From assembly GCF_019679455.1 (NCBI RefSeq), contig NZ_JAIEZQ010000001.1, forward strand, positions 930,001-994,000: DNA of 64,000 nt, read 5' to 3'. Position 1 is the first letter of the stretch, and each line of letters starts with the position of its first letter. Position numbers and translations under genes: made by a program. Positions 61,409 through 64,000 of this stretch are shown piece after piece. The notes below the pieces were generated by a model. The model was given only the letters and a program-made list of their open reading frames with translations, was not told the origin of the DNA and searched no databases. The stretch is from Nocardioides jiangsuensis (GTDB taxonomy: Bacteria > Actinomycetota > Actinomycetes > Propionibacteriales > Nocardioidaceae).

Positions 61409-63496
61409 ATGCACCTGCCGCCCGCCCGCCCGCTGCCGAGACTCCTCACGCTGCTCGCCGCCCTCGTGGCGCTCAGCCTCGTCTCCTCGACGCCCGCGTC
61501 GGGCATCCCGATCGAGGACTACCCGCAGTACGTCCCGCAGAGCACCTGCAGCCCCACCCCCAAGCGGGGGACGGTGATCCTCGCGGAGTACCTGGTGAAG
61601 CGGTACCCCGGCTCGGGATCCTCCGGGATCGCCCGCTCGTGCACCGCGTCGGGCACCTCCGAGCACAAGGAGGGCCGCGCGTTCGACTGGCGGCTCAGCG
61701 CGGAGAAGGGGCGCGACCGCCGGTACGCCACGCACTTCCTCAACCGGCTCCTCGCGACCGACGGGTTCGGCAACAAGGCGGCCCTCGCCCGGCGGATGGG
61801 CGTCATGTACGTGATCTGGAACGACCACATCTGGTCGGCCTCCTCGCACTACGCCAAGCGGTCCTACCTGCACAGCGCCTGCGCGACGGTGAAGGGCTGC
61901 GGGGTCACCCTGCGGCACCGCGACCACATGCACATCTCGCTGACCTGGGCGGGCGCCCGGGCCCGGACGAGCTGGTACGACCGCCGGAAGGGCGAGACCA
62001 CGACGCCGGTCGCCACCCCGAAGCCGGCCCCGAAGCCGAAGCCGGCGCCCAAGCCCGCACCGAAGCCGAAGCCCAAGCCCAAGCCGGCCGCCAAGCCCGA
62101 CCCGGAGCCGGCCCCCAAGCCCAAGCCCGCGCCGAAGCCCGAGCCGAAGAGCGACGACAACGTCCTGGACCTCCGGCGGCGCCCCTACGCGCGCGTCGTG
62201 GTCCCCGCGGACGGGACCACCACGGTCACCTCGTTCAACCTGCGCGAGGGCGCGTCGTACAAGCTGACCGCCGCCGGTCTCTACAGCTACGGCGCCCCGG
62301 ACGAGGTCGCCGACCCCGTCTGCGCCTGGGCCCGGCGGTCCGCGCAGTGGTCGGCCACCCCGGGCCGAGCCCGGAAGAGCACGGGCTCGCTGGACCTGAG
62401 CGTCAACGGCAAGCGGGTCTTCGGCAGCGCCTGCAGGACCCGCGGCCACGCCTACACCGCCGCGTTCACCGCGACGGCGTCCAAGCCGCTGCGCCTGCGC
62501 GTGGTCAACCAGCGCCGCGAGGCGTCGGGGTCGCTGGTCGTGGTGGTCTCCCGCCGCGGCACGGACGTGTCCCGCGCCCTCCCGTCGTACCCGTCGCTGG
62601 TCCCGGCGCCCGCCGCGACCCCGACCGCGCCCCGCGGGTACGGCCTGGTCGCCGAGACCGTCACCGTGCCCGCCGACGCCGACGGCGTGTGGACCAGCAA
62701 GGCGACCGAGCCCGGGGCGGAGTACCGGCTGACCGTCTCCGGGGTCGCCGACCTCGGCGGCGGCGTGCGCACCGACGGGCAGTGCCTGTGGACGCGCGGC
62801 GCCTGGTACCCCTCGGCCTCGATGGACCTGCGCGTGCCCGGAGAGGACCACGGCAACCTGTACGTCGACGGCGTGCCGTTCTCCGGCGCCCCCGCGTCGC
62901 CCGGGGACACCTGCGCGAGCCGCACCCACGCGGCGACGTACACCGCCGACGCCGACGGCCGGCTGCGCCTGGCCCTGTGGGACCCGCTCGGCCGCAGCGG
63001 CAACTCCGGCGCGCTCACCGTGCGCGTGCAGCGGCTGACCGCGCTCGCCGAGCCCACCGCGGCCCCCTCGGAGCGGGTGCGCAAGCGCCGGCCCGAGTGG
63101 AGCCAGGGACACGACTGGTTCCAGGTCGGCACCGACCGCCCCGAGGGCACGGTCTCCACGATGAAGCTGCGCCGGGGCGAGCGGGTGCAGGTCACCGTCC
63201 GCGGCACGCAGCGCTCCAACGGGTACGACGCCGACGCGACCTGCGTGCGCACGGCGGCCGGCTGGCTGCCACGCGACCCGGAGAACACCCTGGCCCAGGA
63301 CCCGCTCGAGCTGTGGGTCGACGGGCAGGAGGTCCGCTGGCGCGCCCTGGGTCGCTTCGAGACCTGCTCGGAGGACGTGCACAGCTACACGACCTGGTTC
63401 ACCGCCACCAAGAACGGGCCGGTCCGGCTGGCCGTGCTCGACCTGGACCACCGGGACAACAAGGGCACGTTCGACGTCACCCTGCTCCGCGACTGA
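61409..63496 (+). CDS. Secreted M15/VanY-like domain protein with Lys-Pro linker and three C-terminal repeats
   Basis: A 695-residue exported protein. A signal peptide (about 1-33) is followed by a domain (about 45-195) with S-x-H-x2-G-x-A-x-D (His86 to Asp93) and HRDHMHISL (His170-His175), the zinc signature of VanY-like peptidases. It matches the actinobacterial ARB-07466-like domain. A Lys-Pro linker (about 205-248) leads to three related modules of about 125 residues, each with two Cys and a late H-x-Y. It may cut peptidoglycan and bind the wall. ATG 61409 is chosen because the signal peptide begins there. Confidence 0.78.
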   Translation: MHLPPARPLPRLLTLLAALVALSLVSSTPASGIPIEDYPQYVPQSTCSPTPKRGTVILAEYLVKRYPGSGSSGIARSCTASGTSEHKEGRAFDWRLSAEKGRDRRYATHFLNRLLATDGFGNKAALARRMGVMYVIWNDHIWSASSHYAKRSYLHSACATVKGCGVTLRHRDHMHISLTWAGARARTSWYDRRKGETTTPVATPKPAPKPKPAPKPAPKPKPKPKPAAKPDPEPAPKPKPAPKPEPKSDDNVLDLRRRPYARVVVPADGTTTVTSFNLREGASYKLTAAGLYSYGAPDEVADPVCAWARRSAQWSATPGRARKSTGSLDLSVNGKRVFGSACRTRGHAYTAAFTATASKPLRLRVVNQRREASGSLVVVVSRRGTDVSRALPSYPSLVPAPAATPTAPRGYGLVAETVTVPADADGVWTSKATEPGAEYRLTVSGVADLGGGVRTDGQCLWTRGAWYPSASMDLRVPGEDHGNLYVDGVPFSGAPASPGDTCASRTHAATYTADADGRLRLALWDPLGRSGNSGALTVRVQRLTALAEPTAAPSERVRKRRPEWSQGHDWFQVGTDRPEGTVSTMKLRRGERVQVTVRGTQRSNGYDADATCVRTAAGWLPRDPENTLAQDPLELWVDGQEVRWRALGRFETCSEDVHSYTTWFTATKNGPVRLAVLDLDHRDNKGTFDVTLLRD
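62020..62155 (+). repeat. Low-complexity Lys-Pro-Ala coding repeat
   Basis: An irregular array of AAG-CCG/CCC and GCG-CCC codons encodes a KPAPKPKP-type linker between the peptidase-like domain and the C-terminal modules. Such linkers span the actinobacterial wall. Length may vary between strains by slippage. Confidence 0.8.
62176..63493 (+). repeat. Three divergent C-terminal protein modules (about 125 residues each)
   Basis: Modules at about 62176-62560, 62638-63035 and 63110-63493 share a pattern: a V-x-A/V-G strand start, C-x8-9-W, an L-D/E-L-x-V strand with G, then C-x4-H-x1-2-Y and a final L-R-L/V-R-L-x-V/L-x-x with a G-x-L/F-x-V end. Overall identity is low. The cysteine pair would form one disulphide per module. 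It resembles a lectin-like beta-sandwich but no family is certain. Confidence 0.6.
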
Positions 63497-63555: not shown

Positions 63556-64000
63556 TCAGGCCAGCGCGGACATCAGCGGCGGCAGGATCAGCAGCATGCC
63601 GAGCGACCAGGTGACGTGGGTGAGCATCGGCGCGAGCACGCCGCCGCTGACCCGGCGCTGGGCCCCGACGAGCAGGCCGAGCAGCAGCGCGGCGAAGACG
63701 AGCATCACGTTGCCGGTGGCGACGGTGGTCAGCGTGTAGACCACCGTGGTCACCAGCACCGGCCGGCGTACCCCGACCGCGGCGTAGAGCGCGCCGCGGA
63801 AGAAGAGCTCCTCGGCCAGCCCGTTGACCAGCGTGATCAGCGCGATCAGCGGCAGCGAGCCGTAGCGGGCGTGGTCGAGGACCGTGTCCACGCTGGCGCT
63901 CAGCAGCGGCACCTGCGCGACCAGCAGCGCGCCGACGGTGAACACCGCGACCGCGACCAGGCCCAGCGCGATCGGCTGGACGACCGGGCGGTGCAGCCGG
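63556..64000 (-). CDS. CPBP family intramembrane metalloprotease (5' end outside window)
   Basis: The visible 147 residues are the C-terminal part of an ABI/CPBP membrane protease, with the glutamate motif EELFFRGALYA and the late HVTWSLGML. Several transmembrane helices are present. The frame stays open to the window edge, and the GTG at 63945 cuts into a hydrophobic helix, so the real start is beyond the window. Family members process proteins in the membrane or confer bacteriocin immunity; the role here is unknown. Confidence 0.8.
   Translation of the reverse strand, partial: RLHRPVVQPIALGLVAVAVFTVGALLVAQVPLLSASVDTVLDHARYGSLPLIALITLVNGLAEELFFRGALYAAVGVRRPVLVTTVVYTLTTVATGNVMLVFAALLLGLLVGAQRRVSGGVLAPMLTHVTWSLGMLLILPPLMSALA

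Follow-up and report, generated by a model that had tools for sequence, protein, structure and literature searches.

The window analysed here is a 64,000-nucleotide stretch of the Nocardioides jiangsuensis genome (Nocardioidaceae, Actinomycetota; assembly GCF_019679455.1, contig NZ_JAIEZQ010000001.1, positions 930,001 to 994,000, forward strand), with a guanine-plus-cytosine (GC) content of around 73%. An open reading frame (ORF) on its plus strand, 61409..63496, begins with ATG and encodes a protein of 695 amino acids plus a stop codon; its GC content by codon position, 0.67/0.59/0.99, is typical of a genuine high-GC gene. The protein contains a metallopeptidase domain of the LAS superfamily, a long linker and three tandem modules, named M1, M2 and M3, all given below in coordinates of this same strand. 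The hydrophobic N-terminus (residues ~1–31, 61409..61501) looks, by inspection, like a putative Sec signal peptide. The linker, residues 195–250 (61991..62158), contains 22 Pro and 13 Lys among its 56 residues, so that the Lys-Pro linker described in an earlier note on this DNA is confirmed by composition, and the segment can be described as long, positively charged and Pro/Lys-rich. Searches of Pfam and NCBIfam with the whole single protein gave no accepted match. The hits obtained from Pfam, NCBIfam and the PDB with the single protein were almost all of low complexity and located on the linker, and the others (8acx, E 0.11; an ssb model, 0.2) were discarded as chance.

The catalytic domain comprises residues 36–195 (61514..61993). 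A profile made from 18 of the 31 catalytic domains, selected for brevity, retrieved VldE from Streptococcus pneumoniae (PDB code 9flh) as the first match in the PDB, with an E-value of 2.6e-5. The five best structural matches of the modelled domain were also all VldE, with Z scores of 6.6–7.1, in the range (Z < 8) where the comparison tool warns of common arrangements; unrelated proteins follow from 3.2 down. The H-x6-D and H-x-H metal site noticed earlier is indeed present, as H86-x6-D93 (61664..61687) and H173-x-H175, and it extends further, to an H-x-D-H-x-H motif formed by H170-R-D172-H173-M-H175 (61916..61933). In VldE the zinc is held by H301, D308 and H375, and H370, D372 and H373 are each required, according to the available excerpt of PMC11667670. 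All six essential residues are matched in the window protein: H86 and D93 correspond to H301 and D308, and H170, D172, H173 and H175 to H370, D372, H373 and H375. The columns of the zinc ligands H86, D93 and H175 are invariant across the 18 aligned domains, and four cysteines are conserved in the domain.

Pfam VanY (PF02557) gave no match to the window domain at E ≤10 and matched one of the 18 aligned domains (E 0.069), Pfam M15_3 matched two of them weakly (E 0.011), and NCBIfam matched none at E ≤0.1. A tape-measure family of PHROG matched 12 of the 18, the window’s own domain not being among these 12. Residues ~133–158 of the window domain separately show a weak PHROG match to a Kil protein (septation inhibition) at E 8.5e-4, which is probably chance. 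Since all six residues essential in VldE are present, and profile and model both rank VldE first, the domain is better called MT3/VldE type than VanY. The description “VanY-like” in the earlier note thus holds at the level of the LAS metallopeptidase superfamily, while the nearest relative by profile and model is VldE.

VldE (Spr1875; MT3 domain in PDB entries 9flh–9fln) cleaves the L-Ala-D-Glu bond of cross-linked peptidoglycan, as stated in the excerpted text of PMC11667670. It shares with the window protein the H-x6-D and H-x-D-H-x-H motifs, the LAS layout and a modular organization with a long disordered linker. The order of the parts differs: in VldE a LysM region precedes the catalytic domain, whereas in the window protein the catalytic domain is N-terminal and the modules come after it. 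The window domain also differs in its four conserved cysteines and in lacking the residue equivalent to the latch residue E368. The motif owes its MT3 name to the phage TM4 tape measure protein, and mycobacterial host proteins carrying it degrade peptidoglycan, as far as the available part of PMC1796659 relates. These hydrolases belong to the same motif family as the window domain, but modules of the kind found here are not described in that part of the report.

The three modules follow the linker: M1 at residues 252–384 (62162..62560), M2 at residues 409–543 (62633..63037) and M3 at residues 560–695 (63086..63493), the third being the one that was modelled. Each contains one pair of cysteines, C305/C342, C459/C502 and C612/C653, which may form a disulphide. 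Pairwise identity is only 24–29%, and yet profiles built from M1, M2 or M3 alone, using seven other genomes, recover the other two modules of the window protein with E-values of 1.1e-15 to 5.8e-10; shuffled controls (600 module sequences) came no closer than 0.08–0.25. Judged by these sequence profiles, the likeness among the modules is not due to chance, in agreement with the earlier proposal of three homologous modules of low identity with one cysteine pair each. The shared motifs proposed with them, C-x8-9-W and C-x4-H-x-Y, hold in part: M1 has both (C-x8-W) and M3 has the second, but M2 and M3 have C-x6-W, and M2 has C-x4-H without the Tyr. In the module alignment, made of 37 of the 42 excised modules (M1 of one two-module protein and four single modules were excluded), both cysteines and one Gly are invariant. 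In the single modules of three relatives (L030, L034 and L040) the two cysteines are separated by a long insertion.

The fold of the modules emerged from profile and structure searches. Pfam, including PF07828, gave no match to the three window modules at E ≤10, and single-sequence searches of Pfam and the PDB returned nothing convincing for them. The 37-module profile, in contrast, placed EclA-N (PDB code 6ygq, annotated as “PA-I galactophilic lectin”) first in the PDB with an E-value of 2.1e-5, with N- and C-terminal stretches in collinear order, followed by PllA (E 0.0034) and, after two unrelated chains, by PA-IL (0.86). The model of M3, obtained with AlphaFold2 from six sequences, has a predicted local distance difference test score (pLDDT) of 78.7 and a predicted template-modelling score of 0.74. 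The eleven best Foldseek matches of this model are all LecA-family lectins, and structural alignment with VIA-align gave Z scores of 9.9–10.7 for this family (10.7 for EclA-N 6ygq, 10.5 for PllA 5odu and 10.0 for PA-IL 2vxj and 1l7l), while the next family reached 6.4. A LecA fold is thus well supported for M3 by its model, and well supported for M1 and M2 by their alignment with M3. A Pfam PF07828 search found nothing in 296 genomes of the phylum but also nothing in 14 controls, and is therefore uninformative on absence. A search of BFVD with the M3 model gave one match at E ≤0.001, the 418-residue viral protein A0A345N1Y3 (E 7.5e-4), which may hold a LecA-like domain.

The earlier note had not recognized the module and had suggested predicting the structure of one copy for a fold search, holding that a match to a catalogued lectin domain would count against a new family. 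The M3 model with its top-ranking LecA-family lectins argues against a new fold, and a lectin match was found in part, because the profile and fold searches place the modules in the LecA/PA-IL fold through a distant relationship; what remains of the original description is that no Pfam model reports the window modules. They are a diverged, unnamed subfamily of the LecA fold rather than a new fold. With LecA, PllA and EclA-N, the lectins of PF07828, they share the jelly roll and the collinear terminal motifs, and M2 and M3 share the calcium-ligand motif as well. They differ in their tandem arrangement on a peptidase, the conserved cysteine pair, an altered middle region, the loss of the calcium motif from M1 and the absence of a Pfam match. 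EclA also carries its LecA domain within a larger chain, where it is paired with a second lectin domain (PMC11875179, in the excerpt available), while the window modules are paired with an enzyme.

The calcium motif distinguishes the modules from each other. In EclA-N three side chains, those of D114, D121 and N122, bind the calcium, and in LecA and PllA a loop of the middle part takes part in galactoside binding, according to the accessible portion of PMC11875179. The profile aligns the conserved D, D and N of EclA-N, numbered by spacing, with the D, D and N of the module motif. Among the ten proteins of the seed alignment the first-position Asp, followed by [DNG][ND]-x-G, is found in 10/10 of M2 and 10/10 of M3, but in M1 only 1/10 has it, namely that of the paralogue, the window protein and eight relatives being without it. 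The motif of M3, D678-x4-D683-N684-K-G (63440..63466), contains all three ligand letters; that of M2, D525-x5-G531-N532-S-G (62981..63010), contains two of three, with G531 in the place of D121 of EclA; M1 has none. This motif, D...[DNG]N-x-G in both M2 and M3, adds to what had been noted before. The loop is one residue shorter than that of EclA in M2 and two shorter in M3, as letters rather than geometry compare. Because ligand letters and loop lengths differ among the modules, calcium binding appears likely for M3, possible for M2 and unlikely for M1. An initial view of the three modules as equal sugar sites was dropped, M1 of the window protein and eight relatives having no motif.

No genome searched outside the window’s family showed the module. 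Within the family it was found in 23 of 197 genomes and 7 of 26 genera, own genome included; the order gave 8 of 196 genomes, all in this family and one of them judged to be chance, and the phylum only the window’s own genome out of 198. This profile search with the module alone, also proposed earlier, ties the module to the peptidase: in 21 of the 23 genomes module and catalytic domain share one ORF, and the remaining two are broken by a contig end. The number of modules, counted in the longest protein fetched of each genome, is three in 10 genomes, two in four and one in seven. The whole protein matches 76 of 100 sampled genomes of the family at E ≤0.001, many via the catalytic domain or linker only. 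The chance match among the order genomes, a weak one in G004 (E 2.5e-4), lies at an ORF resembling, by eye, a 2'-5' RNA ligase, without a catalytic domain. No relative turned up in viral contigs, whether these were scanned with the alignment of the catalytic domain or with the entire protein, and tblastn gave one phage record and two records from a plasmid collection, covering the catalytic part only.

A paralogue of 712 amino acids, which the earlier note did not mention, is encoded in the same genome on the minus strand (C1:822068-824071, L015). It consists of the same peptidase with three modules, all of which keep the calcium-type motif. It adjoins an ORF resembling a histidine ammonia-lyase and an IclR-like ORF, both identified by eye. 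In a tree of 41 of the 42 modules, rooted for drawing only, a branch with support of 100/99 separates M1 of the orthologues and the single modules from M2, M3 and the modules of the paralogue, while the order within the latter side is weaker. As the tree suggests, M1-type modules may have separated from those of the M2/M3 type before these genera themselves diverged.

In other actinobacteria the same peptidase is followed by different partners. The catalytic domain is found in 18 of 149 genomes of the phylum; of 23 places outside the own genome, 19 were read, 13 of which were scanned with Pfam. These 13 proteins carry SLH (six), CW_binding_2 (one), PG_binding_1 (one), FG-GAP (one) or no accepted family (four). 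As this slot mostly holds wall or S-layer anchors (8/13), the LecA-fold modules may be anchors too. Three of the four relatives without an accepted family, and two more that were not scanned, show by eye a repeated motif of the GYW type. In these five proteins (L083, L084, L092, L093 and L094) the peptidase is followed by GYW...G.V.AFGDA-type repeats, perhaps a propeller, and the three scanned gave no Pfam family above cut-off. Two other relatives (L098 and L099) terminate with a hydrophobic segment and a tail rich in Arg, which could be a further means of attachment to the surface.

The genes nearest to the window gene were identified by eye as a CPBP protease, a 2H ligase-like protein, a hydrolase and a cation transporter. 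The CPBP-type membrane protease gene is convergent, at 63556-64000 on the minus strand, and continues in L016. The four neighbouring proteins were compared by tblastn with the loci of nine relatives, most with only ~1.5 kb of flank. The nearest orthologue (L001) is flanked by homologues of the CPBP protease and of the cation transporter that lies upstream; one other relative (L020) has a homologue of the 2H ligase-like protein beside it. Conservation of the neighbours says little about function.

Taken together, these data make it fairly probable that the protein is a wall hydrolase with an MT3/VldE zinc domain, held on the glycopolymer of its own wall by LecA-fold modules that are calcium-centred in M2 and M3. 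The protein would be exported and act as a secreted peptidoglycan hydrolase, whose zinc domain would cut stem peptides, most likely at the L-Ala-D-Glu bond of cross-linked strands. H86, D93 and H175 would hold the zinc, with H170 and H173 taking part in catalysis. Behind the linker, the three jelly-roll modules of LecA/PA-IL type would tether the enzyme to the envelope: M2 and M3 would each offer a calcium-centred site for a sugar of the wall glycopolymer, and M1, which lost the motif, would serve as a spacer or bind in another way. The earlier idea of wall- or sugar-binding modules is well supported as a direction.

A number of observations speak against this proposal. The profile match to 9flh is limited to positions 91–143, the catalytic-domain model is weak (pLDDT 67, falling to 45–50 near H-x-H), and the best Z score for VldE, 7.1, is below the warning level. 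D172 is replaced by Asn in 8 of 31 relatives, though D372 is essential in VldE, and the zinc-latch position E368 corresponds to Leu168, counted from H170; the excerpt of PMC11667670 places E368 in a zinc-zipper loop and reports that the E368A variant stays active. For the modules, the two stretches matching EclA-N are weak singly (0.13 and 5.1), PF07828 matches 2 of the 37 aligned modules (best E 0.0013), the M3 model is only moderate, with the other four models at a pLDDT of 73.8 down to 48.2, and just four Foldseek matches have E ≤0.001, at a TM score of ~0.5. The shorter loops, and the Gly for D121 in M2, mean that calcium binding may be lost, and EclA-N itself keeps calcium with no known ligand (PMC11875179, same excerpt). 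Between their two cysteines the modules depart from LecA, and the bound sugar therefore cannot be read from the sequence. Activity, binding and localisation of the protein are predictions from sequence and models.

Other explanations differ mainly in the role given to the modules. The same enzyme could be a secreted lytic or predatory one whose modules bind foreign or environmental glycans, such as a prey wall or fungal or plant polysaccharide. A dense foreign surface would be a fitting target for three modules behind a long linker, but the predominance of wall and S-layer anchors among the substitutes for the modules in other actinobacteria, and nearest genes that by eye do not resemble a secretion or polysaccharide-degradation cluster, make this unlikely. 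Alternatively, the modules could have lost sugar binding and serve as structural or protein-binding sandwiches, with attachment to the wall left to the charge of the linker. The missing motif in M1 of the window protein and its eight relatives, the high sequence divergence and the example of EclA-N would agree with such a loss; D...[DNG][ND]-x-G is, however, kept in every M2 and M3 of the seed alignment despite that divergence, and this alternative is judged quite improbable.

A third alternative concerns the enzyme itself. A D,D-carboxypeptidase of VanY/M15B type would also display H-x6-D, which is common to LAS peptidases, and H-x-H, general among them as well, and could account for the weak M15_3 and VanY matches. 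With VldE first by profile and model, and with the H-x-D-H-x-H extension that fits VldE, a VanY-type activity appears very improbable. The preferred explanation, a VldE-like hydrolase anchored to its own wall, can be extended, tentatively and with slightly less than even confidence, to the lineage: actinobacteria of this group may have turned the LecA fold into a wall-anchoring module, tandem, disulphide-carrying and calcium-dependent, which reads the cell’s own glycopolymer and places an L,D-endopeptidase. As part of this extension, and held just as tentatively, such modules would be the counterpart of LysM, SLH or CWB2 anchors.

The folds are known and their combination, an MT3/VldE wall peptidase with LecA-fold modules, appears to be new. 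Among the literature matches listed, with most subscription journals outside coverage, there was no report of LecA-type modules on a peptidase. In a 2025 review devoted to lectin fusions (PMC12355970), LecA appears, in the excerpt available, solely within engineered receptors. EclA was described by its authors, in 2024, as the first case of a LecA domain joined to another domain (PMC11875179, likewise in excerpt), and for this reason tandem LecA-fold modules on an enzyme broaden the known uses of the fold. Should the modules recognize sugars of the wall and need calcium to do so, they would constitute a new class of cell-wall binding domain, of practical use for probing walls, and would account for a protein without an accepted Pfam or NCBIfam match. 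If the wall-anchoring role is correct, it would reveal a function of the LecA-type fold beyond that of free soluble lectins.
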